Positions 1-42,600 of a stretch of 43,605 nt of DNA are shown here, one piece after another (position 1 is the stretch's first letter; each line of letters opens with the position of its first letter). The stretch lies in contig JAQTSY010000008.1 of the NCBI GenBank assembly GCA_028711065.1, forward strand, positions 1-43,605, read 5' to 3'. Below the pieces are notes generated by a model. That model ran no database searches and was not told the DNA's origin. It saw only the letters and a program-made list of their open reading frames with translations. This stretch comes from Minisyncoccota bacterium (GTDB lineage: Bacteria > Patescibacteriota > Minisyncoccia > Phycocordibacterales > JAQTLZ01). The position numbers and the translations under genes are program-made.

Positions 1-107
1 AAAATACTGAAATCTGGACCCTGAACTGGACTGTAGAACACGACCGATACAAGTACTGCAATATATGCAATTGCAAACAAAGCATTGTAAAAAGGGTTTT
101 TGGTCAT
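1..107 (-). CDS. small membrane protein, N-terminal part only, truncated at window edge (MTKNPFYNALFAIAYIAVLVSVVFYSPVQGPDFSI...)
   Basis: Open minus-strand frame from ATG at 107 to the window edge with an obvious TM helix; below the length cut-off of the ORF track. Confidence 0.65.
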   Translation of the reverse strand, partial: MTKNPFYNALFAIAYIAVLVSVVFYSPVQGPDFSI

Positions 108-142
108 ACGTTTAGTATACGGCAAATGATTAACTACGAAAA

Positions 143-279
143 GCGGAGGCGGTGGAATTTTGAAACTTACAGTTTCAGTACCCCAATTGGTCCTCCATCA
201 GGCGGAGCTCAATCGGGCTTCAAATCTCGCACGGAAGCGTCCCACGCTTCCTCTCATCCTTGTTCACTTTGTTCACGGC
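143..279 (-). repeat. tRNA-associated structured element (type A) downstream of tRNA-Ser(CGA)
   Basis: T-arm complement ttcaaatctcgc 219-230 vs gcgagatttgaa 287-298; core 176-221; 13-nt TGTAA hairpin 163-175; same order as at the Val, Arg and Glu loci. Confidence 0.75.
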
Positions 280-365
280 GGAGGAGGCGAGATTTGAACT
301 CGCGAGACCCTTTCGAGCCTGCTGGTTTTCGAAACCAGTGCTTTCAACCGCTCAGCCACTCCTCC
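280..365 (-). tRNA. tRNA-Ser (CGA)
   Basis: Minus strand GGAGGAGTGGCTGAGCGG...CTGGTTTCGAAAACCAG...GTTCAAATCTCGCCTCCTCC; long variable arm; no encoded CCA. Confidence 0.92.
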
Positions 366-577
366 TTCATTTCATTCAGTCGGAGTGGCTTCGCGTCCTA
401 CTCGGACACTCACTTGAGCCCGTTTTACAAAAGTAAAACATCGGCTCATTTCGCTGTGAGCGAAATCGCATGAAATATGAAGCAGTTCATATTTCATAGC
501 CACTCTCCTCAAACCTAATAAGCCTAGCAATTTTTTGCCTTTTTTACAAAAAATGATATGATTTCTTGGTTAATTTT

Positions 578-648
578 GGCCCTATCGTCTAATGGTTAGG
601 ACGAGCGCTTTTCAAGCGCTAAACCCGGGTCCGATTCCCGGTAGGGTC
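578..648 (+). tRNA. tRNA-Glu (UUC)
   Basis: GGCCCTA...AGCGCTTTTCAAGCGCT...GGGTCCGATTCCCGGTAGGGTC cloverleaf. Confidence 0.93.
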
Positions 649-796
649 ATCGCGAAGCAATGAAGATAAACGAGCCGACTGCTCGGCTTGTGGCCGGGAA
701 TCGGAAAGGTTCTCCGTTACGTTTTGAAAATTACAATTTCCAAAACGTCGGAAACCTCTACTGTTCCTGTAAGAAAAGATCCCTAGGTAGGGTCAT
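649..796 (+). repeat. tRNA-associated structured element downstream of tRNA-Glu, ending in a copy of the tRNA 3' end
   Basis: Complement of T-arm (ccgggaatcgg 694-704 vs ccgattcccgg 631-641); TTC-CTGTAA-GAA hairpin 764-775; ggtagggtcat repeated at 640-650 and 786-796. Confidence 0.75.
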
Positions 797-817
797 AACG
801 GTTTTCCACATCTTATA

Positions 818-846
818 TTGAACTTTGGTTAGAGCCTCTGTATAAT
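818..846 (+). promoter_or_regulatory. sigma70-like promoter TTGAAC-17-TATAAT, likely leaderless for the 853 CDS
   Basis: TTGAAC 818-823, 17-nt spacer, TATAAT 841-846; ATG at 853. Confidence 0.65.
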
Positions 847-852
847 TATTAC

Positions 853-1566
853 ATGAGTTTGAATAGAAATGAAATGCGAGAAAAGGCAATTCTCCTACGC
901 CAAAGCGGTTTTTCGTATGGCGAAATTTGCAGAAAATTAGAAGACATACCGAAAGGAACCCTTCATTATTGGTTTCAAGATATAATAATTTCTGAATCTT
1001 CTCGACAGCTTTTAAAACAGAAAAATCGGGTCACAAGTCTTAGAAATATCGAGAAATTTAACAAGGAACGAATTTTGGAGCGAGATCACCAAGATAAAAA
1101 ATCATTAGAACTAGGGGAAGAGTTCTTTAAAAATAGTGGTTCAAAGAATTTGTGTCTAGTCGGGGCAGCGCTCTATTGGGCTGAAGGGCAAAAAACTTTT
1201 ACAAATACAAATACCAGATATCTTTCATTTTCAAATTCTGATCCGAGACTCGTACAAGTCTTTATGAATTTTTTACGGATTACTTTAAAGGCACCGGAAA
1301 ATTATATAAAAGCAGGACTGCACCTTCATGAAAATATATCAGACAAAAAAGCCAGAAAGTATTGGAGTGATATAACCAAGCTCCCTACTGACCTGTTTTA
1401 TGTAATTAGAGCAAAAAATATCATCAGTCGTTCCATTCGTCCTAAAAAATTCCTTCCCTATGGCACCTGTGTCATAAGAATAAACCGAAGAAAATACTTT
1501 TTTATCGTCCAGGGAATAATTAATGAGATTCATAATACTTTTGCTTCTAATCATAAAATAAGCTAA
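853..1566 (+). CDS. HTH protein with LAGLIDADG-like region (putative homing-endonuclease-related)
   Basis: N-terminal HTH (LRQSGFSYGEICRKLEDIPKGTLHYW) followed by LVGAALYWAEGQKT...LSFSNSDPRLVQVFMNFLR, resembling CPR HTH/LAGLIDADG-type proteins. Confidence 0.6.
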   Translation: MSLNRNEMREKAILLRQSGFSYGEICRKLEDIPKGTLHYWFQDIIISESSRQLLKQKNRVTSLRNIEKFNKERILERDHQDKKSLELGEEFFKNSGSKNLCLVGAALYWAEGQKTFTNTNTRYLSFSNSDPRLVQVFMNFLRITLKAPENYIKAGLHLHENISDKKARKYWSDITKLPTDLFYVIRAKNIISRSIRPKKFLPYGTCVIRINRRKYFFIVQGIINEIHNTFASNHKIS

Positions 1567-1577
1567 ATTTAGCAAGC

Positions 1578-2111
1578 ATGAAATCTAAAAAATTCATCCT
1601 CATACTCTACGGTTCATCGTGCGCTGGAAAGTCGACAATTATCGAAAGCCTGTCGGCAAAAGTGCCGGAACTATTCCACTTATCGACCGACAGAATCAAG
1701 TGGTCAATCTCTCAATACAAAGCTGGAATGCATAATGACATGCTCCTCGAAATGGTCTTTCAGCTTGGGAAAATGGCAGCTGCAGATGGACTTTCGTTAG
1801 TTATGGACGGAACTCCAACTATCGAGTCAGAGAATTGGAAAAAGTATAAAGCACTTGCCGAAGAAAAAGGAATGGCATTTTATGAAGTGAATATGGAAGC
1901 GGATCTTGAAATACTCAAGGCCCGGTTTGAAGATCGGGTTAAAAATGCTCCGACATCCGGTAAAAAACTTAGCAACACAAGTATGGAAAGATTTATGCTT
2001 CTCTACGATCTACATTCGAAAAACAAACACGAAGGAATTCCAACTTTCTATTCCGACAAACAATCCGTTGAAGAAATCACCGGAGAAATTCTCAAAATAA
2101 TCGAGAATTAA
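1578..2111 (+). CDS. P-loop NTPase / kinase-like protein
   Basis: Walker A GSSCAGKST, kinase-like layout. Confidence 0.7.
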   Translation: MKSKKFILILYGSSCAGKSTIIESLSAKVPELFHLSTDRIKWSISQYKAGMHNDMLLEMVFQLGKMAAADGLSLVMDGTPTIESENWKKYKALAEEKGMAFYEVNMEADLEILKARFEDRVKNAPTSGKKLSNTSMERFMLLYDLHSKNKHEGIPTFYSDKQSVEEITGEILKIIEN

Positions 2112-2113
2112 TT

Positions 2114-2587
2114 ATGCCCCACATTCACGAAAAATTTGATTTTACTTCTACTGTCTACATCGTGTACAAAGGAAAAGTTCTACTTCGTAAACATGAAAAA
2201 TACCATATCTGGATCGGAGTCGGTGGCCATGTAGAACTTGATGAAGAACCGAATCAAGCTGCGGTACGCGAAGCGAAAGAGGAAGTGGGGCTCGATATAA
2301 AACTTATTCATCCTCACAAAGAACCGACACTAAAGGATTATTCGGACATAACTAATTCGCGCCAGCTCATTCCGCCAGCTTTTATGAATCTTCATAAAAT
2401 AAACGAGGTGCATAGCCATATAGATCTCGTATTTGCCGCAACATCGGATTCAAATAATGTTGTACCAGAACAAAAAGGTGACGAGTGGAAATGGATGAGC
2501 GTAGATGAAGTAGAAAAAGACGGAGAAATTTCTGACCGAGTAAAAAATTACGCAAAAACTGCAATAAGCCTAGCGTCTAGAAAATAA
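2114..2587 (+). CDS. NUDIX hydrolase
   Basis: Nudix box GGHVELDEEPNQAAVREAKEEVGL. Confidence 0.88.
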   Translation: MPHIHEKFDFTSTVYIVYKGKVLLRKHEKYHIWIGVGGHVELDEEPNQAAVREAKEEVGLDIKLIHPHKEPTLKDYSDITNSRQLIPPAFMNLHKINEVHSHIDLVFAATSDSNNVVPEQKGDEWKWMSVDEVEKDGEISDRVKNYAKTAISLASRK

Positions 2588-2617
2588 TCTCTTTTTCTGC
2601 TAGATTGGTAGAGTTTT

Positions 2618-2834
2618 AGGGCGGTTAGTCAGTTGGTGAGAGAAAAGCGGGCGATTAGTTGAATTCCGAATACTTGGAGGAATTCAAAGACGGAGGGCGC
2701 ATGGGTGAGAAATGGGACGGGACCCATTTCGCAAGACCTTGAATATTTTGTAATCAGAATGTGAAAGGTGTACAGCTCCTGTAAGGAGCCGAGTCGGGGT
2801 CGCGAAATTTTTCAGCAGAAAAATATTTGTGACC
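2618..2834 (+). repeat. tRNA-associated structured element (type B) upstream of tRNA-Val, left-flanked by a partial tRNA 5' copy
   Basis: agggcggttagtcagttggtgagag 2618-2642 resembles the tRNA-Val 5' half; X hairpin 2705-2738; GTGTACAGCTCCTGTAAGGAG 2768-2788; Z hairpin 2798-2834. Confidence 0.7.
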
Positions 2835-2851
2835 AGTTGGTAGATTAAATA

Positions 2852-2924
2852 GGGCGATTAGCTCAGTTGGTAGAGCGCGTCATTGACGTTGACGATGTCA
2901 GAGGTTCGAATCCTCTATCGCCCA
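2852..2924 (+). tRNA. tRNA-Val (GAC)
   Basis: GGGCGATTAGCTCAGTTGGTAGAGCG...CGTCATTGACGTTGACG...GGTTCGAATCC...ATCGCCCA. Confidence 0.93.
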
Positions 2925-2925
2925 C

Positions 2926-3055
2926 AGGTGGACAAGCAAATGAGTTTGCTTGTCTGAGGATTTGAAACCCGATTGAGCATTTTTTATGAACAGAGTGAAA
3001 TAAAAAATCCAATTGGGGTACTGCTCCTGTAAGGAGCGAATCCTCTATCGCCCAC
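2926..3055 (+). repeat. tRNA-associated structured element (type A) downstream of tRNA-Val with exact 19-nt tRNA tail copy
   Basis: cgaatcctctatcgcccac at 2907-2925 and 3037-3055; core 2964-3023; ctcctgtaaggag hairpin 3024-3036 abuts the copy. Confidence 0.85.
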
Positions 3056-3079
3056 CGTATAATTAATTTACTCACAAAC

Positions 3080-3856
3080 ATGACCATCATCCACGCAATC
3101 ATTTTAGGCATCGTCGAAGGAATCACCGAATTTCTTCCCATTTCTTCAACGGGCCATATGATTCTTGCGGGAAATCTTTTGCATATTCCGCAAACAGAAT
3201 TTCTCAAAACATTCGAAATTTTTATCCAGCTTGGTGCAATCCTCGCAGTCGTCGTCCTTTTCTGGAAACGCCTCACCACAAGCATCGAATCTTGGAAAAG
3301 GATTATCATCGGATTTATTCCGACCGGAATCATCGGCCTCGCTTTATATAAAGTTGTAAAAACTTACCTCCTTGGCAACAGTACTGTTGTGCTCTGGTCG
3401 CTTCTTCTTGGAGGCATTGCGATTTTGGTATTCGAGCTTTGGTACAAAAGACAAGAAGGAGAAAGAATCGAGAACATAGAATCAATTTCATACAAAAAAT
3501 CTGCGCTTGTCGGTCTCGCGCAAGCAGTAGCTATCGTACCGGGAGTTTCCCGTTCTGCGGCAACAATCGTAGGAGGACTTCTTCTCGGCATTAAGCGTGA
3601 GACGATCGTGGAATTTTCTTTCCTTCTCGCAATTCCGACAATGCTCGCGGCAAGCGGACTTGATCTTTTAAAAAGCGCTTCATCCATACAGGCGAACCAA
3701 ATATATCTTCTTGCCATCGGCTTTGTCGTCTCATTCGTTGTCGCGCTCGGAAGTATAAAATTCCTCCTCAATTTCGTGAAAAAACACACCTTCATTCCCT
3801 TTGCGATTTATCGTATCGCGGTTGCAATACTCTTCTGGATTCTTATAGTAAGGTAA
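3080..3856 (+). CDS. uppP: undecaprenyl-diphosphatase
   Basis: GIVEGITEFLPISSTGH and PGVSRSAATI motifs. Confidence 0.95.
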   Translation: MTIIHAIILGIVEGITEFLPISSTGHMILAGNLLHIPQTEFLKTFEIFIQLGAILAVVVLFWKRLTTSIESWKRIIIGFIPTGIIGLALYKVVKTYLLGNSTVVLWSLLLGGIAILVFELWYKRQEGERIENIESISYKKSALVGLAQAVAIVPGVSRSAATIVGGLLLGIKRETIVEFSFLLAIPTMLAASGLDLLKSASSIQANQIYLLAIGFVVSFVVALGSIKFLLNFVKKHTFIPFAIYRIAVAILFWILIVR

Positions 3857-9466: not shown

Positions 9467-9507
9467 CGGACCCTGAATGCCTTACGGCAAACAGGGTCCG
9501 TTTTTTT
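9467..9507 (+). terminator. Rho-independent terminator
   Basis: CGGACCCTG...CAGGGTCCG followed by T7. Confidence 0.9.
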
Positions 9508-9540
9508 GTGCTTGGGGCCGGGGTCGAACCGGCGACCCTT
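9507..9540 (-). repeat. exact 34-nt copy of the tRNA-Phe 3' end
   Basis: tgtgcttggggccggggtcgaaccggcgaccctt identical to 9700-9733. Confidence 0.97.
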
Positions 9541-9668
9541 GTCAAAAGTATTTTTTCACTAAAAAATCTTTCGACCCTGTCTCGCGCCGTCGCGCTCCGA
9601 CCTTGCGCTTGGGTCCCATCCCAAGCTCACTCTTCAGGGGGAACTCCTTACAGGAGCTGTACACCTTT
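9541..9668 (-). repeat. tRNA-associated structured element (type B) downstream of tRNA-Phe
   Basis: Z hairpin 9541-9576, Y hairpin 9579-9601, X hairpin 9602-9630, 25-nt box 9644-9668 identical to 2764-2788. Confidence 0.8.
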
Positions 9669-9701
9669 TGGATATTTATAAGTTTTGGCTAATACTACCT
9701 G

Positions 9702-9774
9702 TGCTTGGGGCCGGGGTCGAACCGGCGACCCTTCCCTCTTCAGGGGAATGCTCTGCCAACTGAGCTACCCAAGC
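9702..9774 (-). tRNA. tRNA-Phe (GAA)
   Basis: GCTTGGGTAGCTCAGTTGGCAGAGC...TTCCCCTGAAGAGGGAA...GGTTCGACCCCGGCCCCAAGCA. Confidence 0.93.
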
Positions 9775-10925: not shown

Positions 10926-11103
10926 CGCACTTCTCCCCTCTGTGTCTTACAAAAATCTGTCCACTGCCCCAATGGCAAGTGCAACAGCGTTATGGCACAT
11001 CTTGCCACAACAACCCCCACAATCATCCTCACAGTAAAAAACAAGCTGGTCAAAACTTACTTATTTAAAAAATTGGTCACAAATAATTTAGGCCAGAGTA
11101 TCG

Positions 11104-11235
11104 GTCGCTACTCGACCAGTGCCCCGATTGGTTCGCCATTAGGCGTAGCTCAATCGGGCTTCAGTTCCTGACACAAGTGCTATTCAAAGCACTTGTTCTG
11201 GGGGCACAAAAATGCTCCGCTTTTTGTGCCCCCAG
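11104..11235 (-). repeat. tRNA-associated structured element (type A) downstream of, and pairing with, tRNA-Arg
   Basis: Core 11117-11162; 13-nt hairpin 11104-11116; T-arm complement 11160-11170; 15-bp perfect inverted repeat with the tRNA 3' end 11198-11235. Confidence 0.78.
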
Positions 11236-11298
11236 CAGGAATTGAACCTACATCTAACCCTTAGGACGGGCTTGTTCGATCCGTTGAACTATGGGGGC
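11227..11298 (-). tRNA. tRNA-Arg (CCU)
   Basis: GCCCCCATAGTTCAACGG...AGCCCGTCCTAAGGGTT...GGTTCAATTCCTGCTGGGGGCA. Confidence 0.9.
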
Positions 11299-11306
11299 TT
11301 ATTAAA

Positions 11307-11485
11307 CTAGTGCGGGATGGGAATCGGTCAGGAGTAATTTGTTCACCGTCGTGAACAAATTCTCACGACCCTAGCTCGCAGTTTTTGCTACTACAAAAAC
11401 ATAGCTTCGCTTTTTCGATTACCCTCGAAAGGTGTTTCAACACCTTACTCATCCCGCACGAAAAAGCCTATTCGGCTTTTTCTAG
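11307..11485 (-). repeat. tRNA-associated structured element downstream of tRNA-Gly with tRNA tail copy
   Basis: ctagtgcgggatggg at 11307-11321 and 11482-11496; T-arm complement 11413-11424; Z hairpin 11326-11370; acceptor hairpin 11450-11494. Confidence 0.8.
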
Positions 11486-11556
11486 TGCGGGATGGGGTAA
11501 TCGAAACCCCGCCTCAACCTTGGGAAGGTCGCGTTCTACCACTAAACCAATCCCGC
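11486..11556 (-). tRNA. tRNA-Gly (CCC)
   Basis: GCGGGATTGGTTTAGTGGTAGAACGCGACCTTCCCAAGGTTGAG...TTTCGATTACCCCATCCCGCA. Confidence 0.92.
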
Positions 11557-18205: not shown

Positions 18206-18237
18206 GAAAAACCCACCGATAAGGGTGGGTTTTTCAT
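18206..18237 (-). terminator. Rho-independent terminator downstream of rnpB
   Basis: AAAAACCCACCCTTATCGGTGGGTTTTTCT on minus strand. Confidence 0.85.
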
Positions 18238-18238
18238 G

Positions 18239-18820
18239 CTTTGTACCTATAAGCCGAATTCTGTAATCGATAGGTATTTATCTGGGATATGAGTTGCCTC
18301 ATACCTCGAGCGGCACTTCCCCCACCACTTTAAGCACTATGCTCCAATCTTTCGAGAAGCCGTTTGTATGTATTTTTGAACTGCTTAAGTTTTCTCTCTC
18401 GCAGAACAGCGTCATTCTTATCTTTGTACGCCTCGTAATATACTAATACAAACGGCCCACGCGATTTTGTGGATGTGCTCTTGCCAGTCTGATGTTCAGA
18501 AAATCTTCGCTTCAGGTCATTTGTTTGACCTATGTAAAATTTTCCATCTTTCAAACTTTTGATCACATACACATAATGCATAAAGTGGTGGGGGACACGG
18601 CCTTGCACAGAAGTAAGGATTTTGCCGTTGCACCCCAAATGTTTCCATTTGGACTCATCCTTGCGGATGCCTTTTTCTTTCGTCAAAGGCGTCTCTGTTC
18701 GCACCTCTCGGATTGCTCCGGACGGGCGTTACCCGCTACTCTTGCCCCGCTTACGAAGGACTCTGTGTTCGGACTTTCCTCTATTGAGTTGCCTCAACAG
18801 CACCTATCCGATACAAAGGC
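18239..18820 (-). ncRNA. rnpB: RNase P RNA, type A-like, interrupted by a GIY-YIG ORF in the P15-position stem
   Basis: Conserved blocks GAGGAAAGTCCG, AGCGGGTAACGCCCG, GTGCGAACAGAGA, GGTGCAACGGCAAAATCC, GCAAGGCC, ACAGAATTCGGCTTATAG; P1 termini GCCTTTGTATC/GGTACAAAGC. Confidence 0.93.
18330..18581 (-). CDS. GIY-YIG endonuclease domain protein (83 aa) nested inside rnpB
   Basis: MHYVYVIKSLKDGKFYIGQTNDLKRRFSEHQTGKSTSTKSRGPFVLVYYEAY; COG2827-like. Confidence 0.92.
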   Translation of the reverse strand: MHYVYVIKSLKDGKFYIGQTNDLKRRFSEHQTGKSTSTKSRGPFVLVYYEAYKDKNDAVLRERKLKQFKNTYKRLLERLEHSA

Positions 18821-30635: not shown

Positions 30636-33600
30636 TTACTGAGTCCCGCCATCGGATGGAGGAGGTGTCGAATCAGAAGGGGGTGGTGGAGTATCGGGAG
30701 AAACTTCTGGAGCGGGAGTTTCGGTAACCTCTGGTGTTGGAGCTGGAGTCGCTGTCAGTTCAGGAGATTCAGTTGGCGAATCTGCGGGAGTTGGTGTAGG
30801 GGTCGCACCTCCTCCACTTCCACCTGCGTCAGGTGAAGGGGTTGGCGAAGCGTCGATTACTGGAGTTGGAGTCGCCGAAGAATCACCGCCTCCAGAAACT
30901 TCCGGCGTAGGTGTTGGCGTGGAAGAATCTCCGGAACCTGAACCAGAGTCAACTGGAGTTGGGGTCGGAGTTGCAGTTATATTAGCTGTCGGAGTCGGAG
31001 TTGCTGAAGAAACATTGTTTGCGCAGTCACCGTCCTCACTTCTCAAAACTCCATTTTCAGTAAAGATACAAACAGGATTTCCCGTCTTTCTGTCGTAGAT
31101 GACCACGCCAGTCTTGGAAACATCTGCAGAATTTTTGATAGTAAGATTATCAACAACTGCATTTTTTGCTTTGAAGTCAATCGTCTGCACACTCTGGAAT
31201 ATTCCGGCAATAGCAGTGAGTCTTTCAACCGCAAGATTTTTCACGTATGAAATCATATCGGTCATTGCGATACCAAGAGATTCAAACGAACCCCGGACGG
31301 AATCTGATACTTCCGAGAGAGCGCTTGAAGCCACGGATGCCGTAAGAGTTCCAGAAGAAACCACTCCTTGCTTATTCTCTACAAAGACAAGTATCGTATT
31401 ATCAGAGGATTTATAACTTCCGGAAAAAGTTTCGAGCGCCAAACCCACAGAATCTTCGTTCGATGACGCTTTCTTTCCAACTCCGGAAACCGAAGAGAGT
31501 GCAATTCTATCTCCAATACTAATCGCACCTCCTTCAAGATTTACTTTCACCGGCACGCGTCCAGAAAGAGCGATTGGCACTTTTCTGTCATTGGGGAAGC
31601 GATTGTCGCCAAAACCTCCGAGCTCAACCCCGGGCTTGGTAGAAACGATTCCAAGAAGCGGAGCTTTGAGAGAACGGTTCGCCGTTTTTACAAAAACAGG
31701 ATTGTCTAGGTCGAGTGCGGTAATTTCTCCGGCAGAAAGTTCGCTGTCTTGGGTTGGGTATTGCTCTGCAAGGTCGGTAGAAGTAATCGAAGTCGAATTC
31801 GCGTAAATAGTTCCGGCAGTCGTTGCCGTAGAACAATCGCCATTATCATCAACACAAAGCCATCCGTTAGAAACTTGGACATTCGCCTGATTGGTGCCAT
31901 TACCAACGGTAAGCGCTTCTGCAGGAGTGGAAGTTCCGATACCGATATGGCCAAACGAGTCAATAGTGATTGGAGTTGCTCCGGTTCCGCTAAAGTTCGA
32001 GGTCAAAGTTGCTGTCGAAGTAGCGGCGCCAGAAATATGCAAAATAGAATTGATGTCCTGAATTGCAGAGACGGTCAGGGCTTCAAGATGCCCGTAGGCG
32101 ATGCCTTTGCTTCCTTCCGCGCCCGAAACTACTTCCGGCGCCACTTGCTCCACTTCTTGGGCGATAAATCCGATCTGCGGTATGCCCGTCCCTTTCATGG
32201 TGTAGTGGCGAGGGTCGAGGGCGAGGACAGCGCAAAGGCCCCCTGTCAAAGACGTGATATTTTCCTTGTATGAAATGTCGGATGCGTCAGTCCAGACTCC
32301 GCTTGCATTGAGCGTTGCGTCTCCGGTCGCGCCGCTTCCGTCGCCGACAAAATGAAGGGCGCTGTCGCCACCGGTGCCTTGCATGTAAATTGCTCGCGAA
32401 GCGCTTCCGTTATTTGAAGCGACCAAGATTCCGCCGGCGATAGTATCGGAAGACTGCCCCACAGACAAAAGTGCCGCCGGCGACGTCGTGCCAATGCCGA
32501 CATTCGCCGCGAATGCTCCCGTGCCACCGAGCACGATACTATTTGATGCCGTGACTTGGGCGTTGTAGCCGATCGCGACCGAGTTGCACACCCCGATGTC
32601 GGTCGCTACTGTGCCGTCGCAGAATCCGGCGTTGGTTCCGAAGAAGAGATTATTGTTTCCGCAAACGCCAATGTACCCCGCGCAGGTTCCAAGGACCACG
32701 TTATCGGTACCAACCCCCGCTCCGGTAGTGTCTCCACCCCAGGCAAAAGAGCCGATGATAGTGTTGTCATTCCCTGCCACTCCACAGTAGCCGGCGGCAT
32801 TACCACCAGCGATGAAGTTAAATTGTCCGCTTCTACCAGAGTCGTCATATCCCCAAGCAGAGTAGCCTACAATGGAATTGTAGGAACCCGCCACTCCGCA
32901 GGTGCCATCTCCAGCATTACCACCAATAATAGAATTGAAAATCCCTGACACTCCACATATACCAGCGGTATAGCCAATGATAGAGTTAAATGATCCGGTA
33001 ATTCCGCAGTAGCCAGCGGAATTACCAAGAACCACATTGTAATCTCCAGTTCCTGCTCCAGTAGTGTCGCTACCCCAAGCAAAAGAGCCCATAATGGTAT
33101 TGCCCGTACCTCCAACCCCGCAATAACCTGCACAGGTTCCAAGTACCACGTTGTCGTTTCCCACTCCAAGTCCAGTCGTATCATTCCCCCAGGCACAAAC
33201 ACCGCCGATAAAGTTGCACGAACCGCAGACTCCGCAGAAGCCAGCCTGACTGCCGAGAAGAGTGTTGTCGTTACCAGCGATTCCTAGATAGCCGGTATTA
33301 TTTCCAATAATGGTGTTGCATGCCCCGGTGAAGCCGCTTGTCCAAGCACTTCCAGCCCCCTGGCCTCCGATAAAGTTTGAATTTCCGCAGACGCCGTTGT
33401 AACCGGCACAGCTTCCGAGAATAGTGTTGTCATTCCCTGTTACCGGCGCTCCGCCTCCGGCGTCGCGGCCGATGATGGAGTTGTAACTTCCGCCGATGCC
33501 GCAGTAGCCCGCGCGGTAGCCCAAAACTTCATTGTATGAACCGGCCACCGCGACATTGCTTGCCGTTTGATAACCGGCAAAAAGGTTGCCACAGGCGCCG

Positions 33601-36600
33601 CCGGTAAAGCCGGCGGCGCCCGTCTGATATCCAAGCAAAACATTGTTATCCGCGCTCACAAAGTTGCCCGAGACATCCACACCCGCGACGCGGAATGCTC
33701 CGCTCACATTGACATCGCCCGTAACATCCACTGCGTAGGCAGGCGAAGTACATCCGCCGAAGCCGACGAAGCTCGGATTGCCGGAAAGATCATTTTTTAT
33801 ATACACGCTGGTAGACGTGGCGGTGCCGTTGCCGGTCAAGAAATTCATATTGCCTCCGCTTTCAAAATTGAGATCGCTTCCCGACGTGATGCCGCTTCCC
33901 GCGCCTCCGGCATTGGTGCCCATAAAGGTCATGTCCGGGAAAAAGATGCCGTTGCCTCCGCCTTCGATTTTGATATTGCCCGCAACATCGAGCGCTTCCG
34001 ACGGAGTAGTGGTGCCAATGCCAACATTGACCGCGTGGATGCCCGTGCCTCCGAGCACAAGCGAGTTGCTTGCGCCGACGGTGGCGTATTCTCCGATGGC
34101 TGTTGCGTTACTCAAATTGCACGCGCCGACATCAGCAAAATTTCCGAGCAAAAGATTGGATGAACCAGTGGTGTTGGTGAGGCCTGTGTGGAAACCGATG
34201 AAAGTATTGCACGAACCGCTTGTACTATTGTATCCAGTGCACGTGCCGAGGAAAAGATTGTCATTGCCCGAAATTGCCGAGCCCGCTCCTGCGGCGTTGC
34301 CGAGAAAAACGTTGCTCCCTCCCGCCACGCCGCAATACCCTGCGCAGGTGCCCAAGACGACGTTGTCGCCTCCCGTGCCAACGCCGATCGTGTCTCCTCC
34401 CCAGGCGGAAGTACCGCCGATGAAGTTGCTTGAACCACAGACTCCGCACATGCCGGCGTCAGTACCGATGATAGAGTTCTGGAAACCGGAAACGCCGCAG
34501 TACCCGGCGTTGTATCCAATAATGGAGTTGAACTGCCCAGTTCGACCGACGGTGTCGTTGCTCCAAGCACTGAAACCAATGATGGAGTTCGCACTCCCCC
34601 CAACTCCGCAGAGGCCAGCGTTGTCTCCAATGATGGAGTTGAAAGACCCGGCGATTCCACAATACCCCGCGTTCGTTCCCAACACCACGTTATCCGTCCC
34701 CACTCCCGCGCCAGTGGTGTCGGCTCCCCAAGCACTACCACCTCCGATGAAGTTGTCCGAACCGCACACTCCGCAGAAACCCGAGCAGGAGCCAATGAGA
34801 GAGTTGTTGCTACCGGAAACTCCGCAGAAGCCAGCCCCTTCGCCCAGCACCGTGTTGTTGGAACCGAGCCTTCCCGCGGTATCTTGTCCCCATGCTCCAT
34901 AGCCAGCGACAAAGTTGTTTGAGCCGCACATTCCGCACCAGCCGGCGCCATACCCAAACAACGTGTTACCGGTACCGCCTCTTCCGCTCTGCCAACCGGC
35001 TCCAACAGATCGACCTCCAAGAAAGTTATAACTTCCAGCGATACCGCAATACCCCGCGTTCGTTCCCAACACCACGTTATCCGTCCCCACTCCCGCTCCT
35101 GTCGTGTCATTGCCCCATGCACAAGTGCCTCCGATGAAGTTATTCGAACCACAAAGACCACCAGCGCCGGCACTGAAACCAAGAACGGTATTGTAAGAAC
35201 CGCACACTCCGCAGAAGCCAGCCTGACTGCCGAGAAGAGTGTTGTCGTTACCAGCGATTCCTAGATAGCCGGTATTATTTCCAATAATGGTGTTGCATGC
35301 CCCGGTGAAGCCGCTTGTCCAAGCACTTCCAGCCCCCTGGCCTCCGATAAAGTTTGAATTTCCGCAGACGCCGTTGTAACCGGCACAGCTTCCGAGAATA
35401 GTATTGTGACTTCCGGCTACTCCCCAATACCCCGCACACGTTCCAATCACTACGTTGTCCGTTCCAGCCGCAGTTCCTGGAATATCGTTACCCCACGCGC
35501 AGGTACCGCCGATGAAGTTGTTGCAAGCGCCACCGGCAATGCCATAGTCAGCCGCGTTATATCCAAGAATGGTGTTTCGAGAACCGGCGATGTGATTACA
35601 GCCAGTACATTCTTGCGAGCCGCCGATAAAGTTGTCAGAACCGGTAACACCTTCGTTGCCCGCATACACTCCGAGAACCGTATTGTTATTACCTGAAGAG
35701 ACGACCGAGTAGCCAGCACCGGCATACATTCCGCCGAAGAAGTTGCCACTGCCAGAGACACCCGCACTATTACCGGCACCGAGACCAATGAGAACGTTGT
35801 CGTCTCCTGAAAGTCCACAGGCTGCTGCCGCAACGCCGAGTATCACATTGCCCGAGCCAGTTCTTCCGCTCTGCCAATTTATTGCCGCGCCAGAGCCACC
35901 GATAAAGTTATCGGAACCACAGACTCCACAGAGACCAGCACAAGTACCCAGGATAGTATTGCTTGCTCCGGTGTATCCGCTTGTCCAGTTTGAACCCGCG
36001 CAGTAGCCAATAATAGTATTCTGTCCTCCGCAGACTCCGTTGTAGCCGGCACAGCTTCCTATAATAGTATTGTCGTCTGTGGTGACCGGTGCTCCGCCTC
36101 CGGCGTCGCGACCGATGATTGAGTTGTATGAACCAGCAATGCCGCTGTAGCCTGCTCGGTAGCCAAGAGCAGTGTTGTATGAACCGGCATTGGCAACATT
36201 AGCACCAACTTGGTAGCCGCCGAAGAAGTTGCCGCATGCACCGCCGGTAAAGCCGGCGGCACCGGTTTGATAGCCAAGAAGGACGTTGTTATCCGCACTG
36301 ACAAAATTGTTGCTGACATCCACTCCGGCGACACGGAATGCTCCGGAGACATTGACATCACCCGTTACGTCCACCGCGTACGCAGGAGCGGTGCATCCTC
36401 CGAAGCCGACGAAGCTTGGATTGCCGCTCAAATCATTCAAAACATAAATACTGGTCGAGGAAGCCGTGCCGTTGCCCGTTTCAAAATTCATACTTCCTCC
36501 GCTTATAAAATTGAGATCGCCCGATGAGGTGATGCCGCTACCCGCTCCTCCGGCGTTGGTGCCGAGGAAGGTCATGTCTGGGAAGAAGATGCCGTTGCCG

Positions 36601-39600
36601 CTTCCTTCGATTCTAATGTTGCCCGCGACATCAAGAGCTTCGTTCGGAGTCGTTGTTCCGATACCAACGCACACACCATTGGCACACGTGCCTCCGAGCA
36701 CGATCATGTTGGAGCCTCCGACGATGGCGTTACTGCCGATTGCCGTTGCGTTTGAAAAGTTGTTTCCGGAAGTGTCGGCCGCATCTCCCAAAAGAAGATT
36801 AGAAGAGCCGACGGTATTCCCGAGACCGGCGTTGTATCCGAGGAAGGTGTTGCACGAGCCGGCAGTGGTGTTCTTGCCCGCGCAGGTACCGAGAATCATA
36901 TTATTGTTCCCCGAAATTGGCGTGTTGTTGGCGCCAGCTTCAAAGCCGCCGATAAAGTTCCCACTCCCTGCCACTCCGTAATATGCCGCGCCACTTCCGA
37001 GAACTACGTTGTTGTCGCCGGTTCCAGCCGCCGCGCCGTCGTTGGCCCAGGCGGCTTCGCCCATAATAGTGTTGAATGAACCGCACACTCCGCAAGCGCC
37101 AGCGCCGTGGCCAATGATGGAGTTGCAAGAGCCAGAAATTCCGCAATATCCAGCATTATCTCCAAGCACCACGTTACCGAAACCTGTTACTCCTACTGTA
37201 TCATTTGCCCAAGCATAACGACCTCCGATGAAATTTCCGCCTCCACAGATTCCGAGCAAACCAGCATGGTCTCCAAGAATAATGTTAGCTGTTCCTGTGT
37301 AACCGCTAGTCCAATTTGCGCCAGCATTGATTCCAGCTATAAAATTGCAACTCCCCGCTACTCCGCAATACCCGGCGTAGGTTCCAAGTACCACGTTGTC
37401 GCTGCCGATTCCCGCACCGGTGGTGTCGTTCCCCCATGCACTATAACCGCCGATGAAGTTGGAACTTGAGCACACGCCAAGTTTACCAGCACAGTAGCCG
37501 AGAATAGTGTTGGCGCTTCCTGCGACACCGCAATAGCCAGCGCTATTGCCTAACACCAAGTTGTTTGAGCCAATTCCCGCTCCAGTCGTGTCATTGCCCC
37601 ACGCATTCCCGCCACCGATGAAGTTAAAGATTGCTCCAGTAGCAATTCCACACGCACCAGCATTCGAACCGAGAATCGTGTTGTCACTTCCACAGAATCC
37701 GCTCGTCCAGCTTCCTCCTGCTTGCGAACCAGCGATGAAGTTACAAGAACCACAGACACCGCACAGACCAGCGTTGTGACCGATAATGGAATTATAGTTT
37801 CCCGCCACTCCGCAGTATCCTGCATTTGTTCCCAAGACCAAGTTGTCCGAGCCAGTACCTGTGTGTGCTGTGTCGTCTCCCCATGCCTGGTATCCGCCAA
37901 TAAAGTTATGGCACGCACCGCCCCAAAGACCCTCTTCGCCGGCGTTCACTCCAATAATAGTATTTGAATACCCACAGACACCGCAAAGTCCAGCATTAAA
38001 TCCAATTATCGTATTTTCGTCCCCAGAAATACCGCATGAACCCGCCAGACCACCGAGAAGTATATTTTGCACTCCATCCCTTCCGCTCTGCCACGTTTCT
38101 CCCGCACATGCTCCCGCGATGAAGTTACAGCTTCCTGTTACGCCATTGTCGCCAGCATGCAGTCCGAGAATAACATTGTTGTTTCCGCCAAAACCAGGTG
38201 TCCAGTTGGAACCAGCGGCAAGCCCCGCGATGAAGTTATTATTCCCGCACACACCGCAGAGACCAGCGGCGAGTCCGATGATGGAATTTCCGCTTCCCGA
38301 AATTCCGCAATACCCCGCGCAGCTTCCCAGCACCACGTTGTCGGTTCCGACTCCTGTGCCCGCTAAATCATTCGCCCACGTGCAGTATCCAATAATAGTA
38401 TTCTGTCCTCCGCATACTCCGTTGTAGCCGGCAAAACTTCCACCAATGAAGTTATCACTTCCACACACGGGAACATTTCCGCCAGCATAGCGCCCAATCA
38501 GGGAATTGAAATTGCCGCACAGTCCAACGGAGCCAGCCTCATAACCGAGAATAAGATTGTTGCCGCCGGAGACATCGCCACTACCTGCGGCATAGGCACC
38601 GAGAATAGTGTTGAACGCACCTGAAACATTGCAAGCCCCCGCGCCAGTACCGCTGATGAAGTTATCATGTCCGCACACTCCGCAGGCGCCGGCTTGTCCT
38701 CCAATAATAGTGTTGTAACTGCCAGTCCGTCCCGCTTGCCAACTATAGCCCGCTTGAGGGCCACTGATGAAGTTGTTACTTCCTGCCACACCGCAATATC
38801 CTGCGGAACTTCCGAGCACCACGTTGTCGGTTCCAACTCCAGCGCCAGTGGTGTCGTTGCCCCACGCACCCCAACCTCCGATAAAGTTTCTGTAACCTGC
38901 CAGACCACAATACCCCGCGCAGCTTCCAAGCACTACGTTGTCCGTTCCGACTCCTGCGCCGGTGGTGTCGTTGCCCCATGCGCACACCCCGCCAATAAAG
39001 TTACAGGAACCGACGATACCGCAAAAACCGGCGCGGGAGCCGAGTATCATATTGTTCTGTCCTGTTCCTTGGGCTAAAGTGTCGCCTCCCCACGCGCAGT
39101 TGCCGAATATAGTGTTGCCATAACCCGCAACCCCGCAGTAGCCGGCGCAGAAACCGCCGATGAAATTGGTAGCCCCTGATATCCCACAGTAGCCCGCTTC
39201 AAAACCGAGCACCACATTAAGGCCTCCTGTTCGTCCGGTTGTATCCCCTCCCCACGCTTCTTTTCCGGCGACTAAGTTATTCCATCCGCAAACTCCATGC
39301 GACCCAGCACAATAACCAATAATAGCATTATAGTTTCCAGAGATGCCACAATACCCCGCGCAGGTTCCAAGCACCACGTTGTCCGTTCCGACTCCCGCGC
39401 CGAAATCATTCCCCCACGCACAGGTGCCGCCGATGAAGTTATCATTTCCGCACACACCGGTGAGACCAGCGCAATGTCCAAAAACAGAGTTATAATTGCC
39501 ATAAATTCCGCACGCCGCCGCCTGTGTTCCCAAGACCACGTTATCATTTCCGAGTGCCGCAGTGTTCAGTCCTGAACAACCTCCCCACGCGCTGGTGCCG

Positions 39601-42600
39601 CCGATGAAGTTGTTGTTGCCACCAATACCGCCCGCTCCCGCACATGTGCCGATGATAGTGTTGTTCGTTCCGCAGAATCCTGTATACCAACCACACGCCG
39701 CGCTGTATCCAATAATGGTGTTTCTGTCTGAACCAGCGACAAGACGGTCGTACCCAGCATTCTTTCCAATAATAACGTTATCTGAACCTGCAATATCTCC
39801 GTACTGGCCATAGCCAGCAAAATCACCAAGAATGAGGTTGTCGTTTCCGCCAACTCCACATGAGCCTGCGCCTGCGCCTATAATAGTATTGCGAATCCCA
39901 GCTCTGCCTGACTGCCAATCGAAGCCCGCGTTATAGCCCATGATGGAATTATAACTTCCACACACTCCTCCAAGACCAGCACAAAAACCGATTATTGAAT
40001 TGAAACTCCCCGCCACTCCGCAATACCCAGCGCAGGTGCCAAGCACCACGTTGTCGGTTCCGGCCGCAGTACTGCTTGCGGCCCACGCATTCGAGCCGCC
40101 GATGAAGTTGTCATTGCCAGAGACTCCCAAGGCACCGGCGCAGTAACCGATAATCGAGTTGAAATTGCCTGAAATTCCGCAATAGCCGGCAGATACGCCG
40201 AGCACGGTATTGAAAATCCCAGTCGCAGTTCCCGCTTCGTCATCGCTCCACGCAAGCGCACCGCCGATAAAGTTTTGATTGCCCGCCACTCCGCACAGCC
40301 CGGCTTGATGACCGATGATTGCATTGCCAAAACCGGCGACCCCGCAATAGCCGGCAAAGAAACCGATCACAGCGTTTGATTCACCGGCAATGCCACAGTA
40401 GCCGGCGCTTCGTCCCAAGACCACGTTTTCCCCTCCCGCTCTTCCCGTGATGTCGTTGCCCCAGGCGCAAGCGCCTCCGATAAAGTTCAAGTTGTTCGCG
40501 ATTCCGCACAGGCCAGCACAACTGCCGAGCACGATGTTGTCCGTCCCCGCGGGACCTCCTTGATACGTAACTTTTCCTCCGTTCGAATCGCCCACGAAAA
40601 AGTACTGTGTGCCGATAGAGTAACCGCTTCCATAGGCGGAGAGATATCCGGAGGTAATTTCACCGGTTCCGTCAACGGAAATGATGTGGAAGACGGCAAG
40701 ACCATCGCCTCCGTCGAGATTGTAGTCAGCGCCGGCGGAGTAGCCGCTCCCGGCATTGTATATGCTGGCGGTAAATGCGGGAGCGTTGCCCCACGCAGAG
40801 GTGCCAATGACGGTGTTGTTGATGCCGGCAACTCCGCAATATCCCGCGCAAGTTCCGAGTACCACGTTGTCATGTCCGACTCCTGTCCCCGCAGTATCAT
40901 TTGCCCAAGCGCAAGTACCCAAGATGGTGTTGTCATTTCCGCAGACACCACAGAAGCCGGCGGCATTTCCAATAACCGAGTTTCTGTCTCCATAAATACC
41001 GCAAGAGGCCGCAGATGCTCCTAACACCAAGTTGTAATCTCCAAGTGCCGCAGCATTCACTCCTCCCCCTCCCCATGCGTATATACCGCCGATAAAGTTA
41101 GCATCGCCACCAACACCGCCCGTCCCTGCACTGGTACCAAGAATAGTATTTTCACTTCCACAGAATCCAGTGTACCAAGAACAAGCGGCATTGTGTCCGA
41201 TGATGGTGTTGTAATCCGAGCCAACAGTAAGTCGTTCATAAGCCGCATCCTTTCCGATGATGATGTTGCCGGTACCAGCAGTATCACAGAAGCCGGCATT
41301 TTGACCGAGTATGACATTCCAATTTCCAGAGACTCCACAGAAGCCGGCACCCGATCCAATCATCGTGTTGTCCTGTCCGTTTCTTCCCGCTTGCCAATCA
41401 CCTCCTGAAGCATACCCAATGAGAGTGTTTGCATCAGCGAGACTTGGAAGACCGTTTTTACCAGCGAGATACCCGCCGATAAAGTTCCCAGAACCAGCGA
41501 CTCCGCAAAGTCCAGCTTGAACGCCAAGGATAACGTTGCAGCTTCCCGCCACTCCGCAATACCCCGCACAAGTTCCCAGCACTACGTTGTCCGTTCCTAC
41601 TCCCGTGCCTGCCGTGTCATTTGCCCACGCACTCGTACCTCCAATGAAGTTACAAGAACCGCAGACTCCAAGATTGCCCGCACTCAGACCAATAATTGAG
41701 TTGTACGAACCAGCCACTCCGCAATAGCCGGCGTAACTTCCGAGCACCACGTTACGCTCTCCTACTCCCGTCCCGGTCGTGTCATTACCCCACGCACTCG
41801 TGCCGCCGATGAAGTTGAAATTGCCAAGGACTCCGCGATATCCTGCTGCCGGATTGATATGGGCTGTGTCAGCACTACCAAGAATAATGTTGCCGGTTCC
41901 GACAATCCCGCAATACCCAGCGCAGGTGCCGAGGACTACGTTGTCCGTGCCAATTCCAGTTCCAGCTGTGTCATTGGCCCACGCGCCCCAACCTCCGATG
42001 AAGTTGTTGGACGCGCCGCTTGCGATTCCGCAATACCCAGCATCTCTGCCTGCAATGAAGTTGTCGTTCGCGCTATTTGCAACTCCGAAAAGAGCTGCGT
42101 GATAGCCGAGAATGGTATTTCGAGAACCGCAGATCGGACCGCCACTTCCAGATGTGCCGCCGATGTCGGTACCGCCGAGGAAGTTGTCGGAGCCGGAGAC
42201 TCCGCAATATCCGGCATTGGTACCGATGATAGAGTTGCTTGTACCGCTGACACCGTTAAAGCCCGCTTGCCCTCCAAAAATATTATTGGCATAGCCAGAA
42301 ACCCCGCATAGGCCGGCATTGAAACCGATGATGGAATTATACTGACCCACTATCCCGCAATATCCGGCGCAGGTTCCGAAAATAATATTATCCGTTCCTG
42401 CCGAAGTCGTGCCGACATTAAATCCGAGCGCTACGTTGTGGGTTGTTGTTCCGTACGCGCCGACGCCGGCAAATGTTCCGCCGTTATTAAATTGGAACGA
42501 GCCGTCAGCGCCGCTCGGCGTTCCTCCGCCCGTAATTCCTAGAGATGAAGTCGCGACAAGATCATATCCGCCCGAATTATTTCCAAGAAGAAGCTGACCA

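Follow-up and report, generated by a model that had tools for sequence, protein, structure and literature searches.

The 12-nt complement of the tRNA-Ser(CGA) T-arm looks like one stem of a ~150-bp hairpin-rich element that inserts into tRNA genes in an order of Patescibacteria; the element has the appearance of mobile DNA and not of an RNA switch. The complement lies in a window of 43,605 nt (the whole stretch of DNA analysed, contig C9 of a 974-kb genome of 31 contigs and about 41 tRNAs), which was compared, together with the rest of its own genome, with two genomes of the same genus, G031 and G109, all of them MAG assemblies. The unit to which the complement belongs has a defined anatomy, recurs behind many tRNA genes, is bordered by direct repeats and is missing from several orthologous sites. 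We consider it fairly probable that the unit is a non-autonomous, tRNA-restoring mini-mobile DNA element in which the 3′ half of the tRNA gene doubles as the 5′ strand of the first hairpin.

T-arm complements downstream of tRNA genes

As originally predicted, segment 219–230 (ttcaaatctcgc) is the exact reverse complement of 287–298. On the minus strand, the latter corresponds to T54–T65, i.e. the T-loop and the 3′ strand of the T-stem, of tRNA-Ser(CGA) (277–365; ARAGORN and Rfam RF00005), and the former lies 47–58 nt past the annotated end of this gene. The chance of a perfect 12-nt match to that 12-mer within ~220 nt is about 1e-5. Moreover, tRNA-Glu(TTC) and tRNA-Gly(CCC) in the window each have a 12-nt complement (hereafter anti-T) of their own; in tRNA-Glu, the T-arm TCCGATTCCCGG is matched by the anti-T CCGGGAATCGGA at 694–705 (plus strand). 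The complements of tRNA-Val(GAC) and tRNA-Arg(CCT) in the window are near-perfect. Across the three genomes, 41 of 114 tRNA/tmRNA genes have an 11–12-nt perfect antisense of their own T54–65 at most 220 nt downstream, and complement length is bimodal, none of the genes having a complement of 9–10 nt. Upstream of the same 114 genes, no 11–12-nt complement was detected, the longest being 9 nt, and in the downstream regions of other, mismatched tRNAs a complement of at least 11 nt is found in 0.23%. These two controls rule out a chance match. The complements are tRNA-specific, each suiting its own tRNA across many T-arm sequences.

The complement also changes together with the T-arm. For tRNA-Ile(GAT), the T-arm is TTCGACTCC and the anti-T GGAGTCGAA in the genome of the window and in G031, versus TTCGAATCC and GGATTCGAA in G109, so that the pair GACTCC/GGAGTC of the first two genomes is replaced by GAATCC/GGATTC in the third. 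The complement has therefore been kept through changes of the T-arm, the opposite of the loss that the original prediction named as evidence against itself. The anti-T is nearly perfect in units with perfect repeats and in units with a decayed distal copy alike.

Anatomy and classes of the unit

Read in the sense of the tRNA, the unit runs from the tRNA through a trailer, an anti-acceptor strand and a side hairpin to the anti-T, and continues through AAG, hairpin H2, TACTG and hairpin H3 (GTA loop) to a repeat of the tRNA 3′ half, which begins at the T-loop and is in decay. In many units the trailer is an intrinsic-terminator-like hairpin, located between tRNA and anti-T. Type-1 units are ~130–176 bp long and consist of hairpins only, with no integrase gene. 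Sixteen units of the genome align well, with compensatory changes in 22 of 25 pairs (counts that ignore relatedness), and were used to build a covariance model, R1, whose E-values are rough because of a short calibration.

At tRNA-Ser(CGA), the type-1 element comprises H1 (tRNA 3′ half, trailer and anti strand), H2, TACTG and H3 and spans 162–298 on the minus strand, its boundaries being taken from direct repeats at other loci; R1 matches 148–234 (E 8e-22). T54–T65 (287–298) is read as the beginning of the H1 5′ strand and the anti-T (219–230) as the 3′ strand of the H1 stem. Between anti-acceptor and anti-T stands the side hairpin GGAAGCG TGGGA CGCTTCC (233–251), which varies in sequence while its pairing is conserved in this and other genomes. 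H2 (P2/P2a, GCCCGATTGAGC ... CCAATTGGGG; 181–218) displays compensatory changes in both alignments, A1 and A2, and H3 (P3, GAAACTGTAAGTTTC; 162–176), preceded by TACTG, has an invariant GTA in its loop. The displaced copy of the tRNA-Ser 3′ half (143–162) is decayed; its G109 orthologue forms a perfect 21-bp repeat.

Two further classes can be defined. Type-2 units differ in their H2/H3 sequences and share the placement, with an anti-T before and a 3′-half copy after them (e.g. L209 and L164). Type-3 units have a plain hairpin as H1 and stand apart from tRNA genes, examples being those upstream of metG and typA genes (assigned by eye from the translations). Units may stand in tandem, two subtypes may share one tRNA, and older units have a longer anti-acceptor and palindromic trailers. 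In the genome of the window, full-length strong R1 matches are located at tRNA/tmRNA 3′ ends, including those of the tmRNA (recognised through its G031 orthologue) and of an intron-bearing tRNA. In other genomes, 54 of 68 distinct matches are found downstream of a recognised tRNA/tmRNA on the same strand; others lie at the end of a contig or next to a tRNA 3′ end uncalled by ARAGORN. At the gathering score, Rfam 15 returned only tRNA and RNase P RNA in the window and nothing for the unit, which leaves no gathering-level match to a T-box or any other Rfam RNA.

One type-3 unit follows the 5S rRNA gene on contig C15 (L071), and its 3′ flank, GACCTACTTTCGC, is a 12–13-nt complement of the 3′ part of 5S. 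Another lies on contig C21 (L066/L077, ~13.7–14.3 kb), upstream of a tRNA gene with Asn-like ends that is split by a ~300-nt intron-like insert and has a type-1 unit downstream.

Five further tRNA genes of the window host units. On the plus strand, tRNA-Glu(TTC) (577–651; ARAGORN, Rfam) is followed by a type-1 element of subtype 1b at 691–791 (R1 E 8.5e-19), with a copy of the tRNA 3′ end at 778–796. tRNA-Val(GAC) (2852–2925, plus; ARAGORN, Rfam) has a type-1 element at 2926–3036 (R1 2951–3051, E 1.7e-28; anti-T 2955–2966), flanked by a 19-bp direct repeat with its proximal copy at 2907–2925, running from C56 in the T-loop to the annotated 3′ end of the tRNA, and its distal copy at 3037–3055. 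On the minus strand, a type-1 element follows tRNA-Arg(CCT) (11226–11298) at 11089–11175 (R1 E 2e-20), the element behind tRNA-Gly(CCC) (11485–11556) has its 12-nt anti-T at 11413–11424, and a composite type-2/3 insertion at tRNA-Phe(GAA) (9701–9774) occupies 9507–9733 with a 34-bp direct repeat (9700–9733 and 9507–9540). In addition, a type-3 unit nested within a type-2 unit (approximately 2688–2840, plus; R1 2719–2803, E 1e-6) sits within partial copies of the tRNA-Val 5′ part.

Direct repeats and empty sites

The tRNA-Val(GAC) locus provides the clean empty site at a tRNA, the only one among the loci compared. In the genome of the window the unit is situated between two exact 19-bp copies of CGAATCCTCTATCGCCCAC, and in G031 the site is uninterrupted (GAGGTTCGAATCCTCTATCGCCCACCGTATAATT); the distal repeat runs on into the flank CGTATAATT, as at the empty site. 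The other empty sites belong to related units outside tRNAs. The site orthologous to that of the type-2/3 unit before metG is empty in G109, and on contig C17 (L070, C17:52878–52983) a type-2 unit whose hairpin loop harbours a type-3 unit splits a coding sequence that is intact in its G031 orthologue. Among the 20 units with clear direct repeats, the repeat mostly starts at T-loop position 52–56 and mostly ends no more than 3 nt from the tRNA 3′ end. Thus, the repeats at 20 units and the tRNA-Val empty site reveal both a restored tRNA and a displaced 3′ fragment. Furthermore, in the sister genomes a given tRNA may have a type-1 unit, a type-2 unit or none, varying gene by gene within the genus. 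The anti-T of tRNA-Val matches its T-arm imperfectly, implying that H1 need not be perfect on arrival.

As a separate observation, the T-arms of orthologous tRNAs of the three genomes diverge strongly, the rest of the tRNA being near-identical, with or without an element: T-arm and remainder differ at 8/17 versus 2/47 positions in tRNA-Cys, 5/17 versus 1/48 in tRNA-Ala and 5/17 versus 2/62 in tRNA-Leu(TAA). T-arm change is equally frequent in pairs that both lack the element and in pairs of which one has it, and we therefore did not adopt the view that element gain rewrites the T-arm.

Mispairs in the helices

In the H2, H2a and H3 helices of 78 distinct units, we counted 1364 Watson–Crick cells, 17 G-T and 16 A-C (counts that ignore relatedness). 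In tRNA stems from these genomes, the numbers are 44 G-T and 3 A-C, which differ from the 17:16 of H2/H3 with a Fisher p of 2e-5 (likewise ignoring relatedness). Between T-arm and anti-T, at positions 2–12 (the outermost position left out), there are 5 G-T and 7 A-C. RNA transcribed from one strand would accept G-U pairs but not A-C, and the near-equal numbers of G-T and A-C therefore argue for DNA, either single-stranded or cruciform. The unit thus points to a structure conserved as DNA. The invariant GTA loop of H3 is of the GNA triloop kind, which is known to be very stable in DNA.

A proposed tRNA-restoring element and its alternatives

We propose that the element is small and protein-less and would consist of three consecutive hairpins, H1 - AAG - H2 - TACTG - H3 (GTA loop). 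Where a copy sits in a tRNA gene, H1 would take its 5′ strand from the 3′ half of that tRNA (T54 to the 3′ end), and anti-acceptor, side hairpin and anti-T would form its 3′ strand. The unit would enter at the T-loop, separating the 5′ half of the tRNA from its original 3′ half, and would bring in a new 3′ half that keeps the tRNA intact, the old one remaining as a decaying direct repeat. For recognition, the H1 hairpin would have to form on single-stranded or extruded DNA. The anti-T would then follow the T-arm because together they make up a single DNA hairpin; the remaining copy would be free to decay since the tRNA 3′ half already acts as the H1 5′ strand. We infer that recognition is directed at the three hairpins and that movement proceeds via folded single-stranded DNA with a putative enzyme acting in trans. 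A more far-reaching proposal, which we regard as possible and advance tentatively, is that the unit represents a new kind of mobile DNA: a gene-less ~150-bp three-hairpin cassette with T-loop integration guided by folded single-stranded DNA, with the host 3′ half as a strand of the recognition hairpin, and driving the rapid T-arm turnover between sister species.

The original prediction assigned the complement to the transcript, as an antisense switch on tRNA folding or an internal guide sequence. On read-through, the anti-T, together with the anti-acceptor, would pair with the tRNA 3′ half and open the tRNA, while the partner of the downstream copy would be the anti-T or the 5′ half of the tRNA; this equilibrium would control tRNA maturation. 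Competition with the T-stem is indeed borne out by the predicted folds: in minimum-energy structures of read-through transcripts the T-stem is opened, the anti-T being paired to the T-arm, and the 5′ half of the tRNA to the distal copy (z −3.8 and −7.1). The co-change of the tRNA-Ile orthologues and an anti-T that is nearly perfect even where the downstream copy has decayed also fit a switch. However, the G-T : A-C symmetry of the helices (17:16 against 44:3 in tRNA stems), the terminator-like hairpin that intervenes between tRNA and anti-T in many units, and the finding of an identical H2/H3 architecture away from tRNAs all argue against it, as do the flanking direct repeats, the clean empty tRNA site and a presence that varies tRNA by tRNA within the genus, unlike that of a needed regulator. 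We therefore consider a switch improbable, although folded read-through RNA may have a secondary effect. As for an internal guide sequence acting as RNA, Rfam detected no group I core in the window at the gathering score, nor in 1–3300 at E≤10, and a group I intron guide is not supported.

An equally improbable alternative places the guiding at insertion, when the anti-T would pair with the T-arm of the new tRNA gene in the manner of IS200/IS605-type guides or RNA-guided insertion. In the recent tRNA-Val insertion, the guide GAGGATTTGAA is a better fit for TTCAAATCCTC than for the target actually used, TTCGAATCCTC, as though it were older than the insertion, and several empty orthologues, namely those of Ser-CGA, Ser-GGA, Leu-CAA and Pro, share the T-arm with the filled gene. 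By contrast, in the filled/empty pairs of Ala, Gly-TCC and His the empty T-arm mismatches the guide, and most units with perfect repeats match their new host almost perfectly, which is not generally expected of a pre-existing guide. Less probable still is a functionless palindrome, produced by template switching at the tRNA terminator hairpin as an inverted triplication (the 3′ half on both sides of its reverse complement) and later kept similar through inverted-repeat correction. The order of the segments is that of such a triplication, and the longer anti-acceptor and palindromic trailers of older units agree with it, yet a variable hairpin, which simple copying would not preserve, splits the reverse complement, the conserved and covarying module H2-TACTG-H3 is found also in units outside tRNAs, and neither the direct repeats nor the clean empty site fit this origin. 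The tRNA-restoring mobile element remains our preferred reading.

Distribution and search for a mobilising enzyme

R1 matches are found in 161 of 297 genomes of the order, with a patchy distribution and up to at least 13 copies, and in a phylum-wide sample only 2 genomes outside the order have one. The exact core pattern gave no match in known viral contigs, and carriage by these was rejected. Y1 transposases are present in 114 of the 161 genomes with the element versus 69 of the 136 others, a modest association (OR 2.4, p 5e-4, ignoring kinship). The Y1 HUH transposase is represented by two genes in G031 and by none in either the genome of the window or G109. Among 20 Y1 loci there is a single R1 match, away from its Y1 gene, and the unit flanks none of these genes. 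A resident IS200/IS605 or RAYT mobiliser was therefore rejected, given its absence from the genome of the window, the weak OR of 2.4 and the different flanks elsewhere. Y1 genes of this order (loci L221–L240, ~215–260 aa) have short flanking palindromes of their own, e.g. GTCAAGGACAGTCCTTGAC and GGTACCTGACACC. Reverse transcriptases, considered as another candidate, are uncorrelated with the element (OR 1.16, p 0.56). The only tyrosine recombinase encoded in all three genomes is Xer-like, and a second one lies on contig C29 of the genome of the window.

If our reading is correct, the unit would be a widespread Patescibacteria repeat family, occupying as many as roughly half of a genome's tRNA genes, and an element that shares sequence with its host tRNA would tie tRNA evolution to a selfish element. 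Filled and empty sites, tandem units and matching strands would offer a system for asking how gene-less ~150-bp elements move in ultra-small bacteria with few recombinases, and also why their T-arms change when the remainder of the tRNA does not.

Comparison with known systems

The rtT repeats in tyrT of E. coli resemble the unit in being ~170–180 bp long, lying downstream of a tRNA and including ~19 bp of the tRNA 3′ end. To our knowledge, rtT repeats are known from one operon and not from many tRNAs, and we found no sequence or Rfam relation between them and the unit. No earlier description of such units was found in the literature searched, most subscription journals being outside its reach.

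Islander islands split tRNA/tmRNA genes, restore these by means of a 3′ part that they carry, and leave the 3′ fragment of the gene displaced (PMC4383910). The unit shares with them tRNA restoration, the displaced fragment, the use of tmRNA and the repeat from T-loop to 3′ end, a mark of tRNA-restoring elements (PMC4383910). However, the islands are many kb long, whereas the unit has ~150 bp, consists of hairpins only and lacks an integrase or any gene; moreover, its carried 3′ part doubles as a hairpin strand, and units occur in tandem. With the attC sites of integrons (PMC2727003, PMC3053210), the unit has in common a folded single strand that would be recognised, stronger conservation of structure than of sequence, a paired stem with bulged bases and the growth of tandem arrays at one site. 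Unlike integron cassettes, it lacks a gene, and its site is the tRNA T-loop. REP/BIME palindromes mobilised by TnpA-REP (RAYT) (PMC8266576, PMC6006769) are similar in forming many short, gene-less, dispersed hairpin units with a patchy distribution between relatives. The unit differs from them in its three hairpins with fixed linkers, tRNA targeting and long direct repeats, and from the REP/RAYT system in that its genome lacks a Y1 transposase and the inspected Y1 genes have other palindromes. TIGR-Tas guide arrays (PMC12045711) were also considered; the unit appears to have a different architecture.

Other features of the window

The neighbouring genes examined in the window (an HTH-like ORF, an AAA kinase, NUDIX and UppP) gave no link to the element. 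The last third of the window is taken up by an open frame of 4280 codons (30636–43478, minus strand). The RNase P RNA gene (18234–18819) has an insertion of ~245 nt at 18333–18577 (minus strand), closed by a strong stem and readable as an open frame (YVYVIKSLKDGKFYIGQTNDLKRRFSEHQTG...) that, judged by eye, resembles a GIY-YIG endonuclease.
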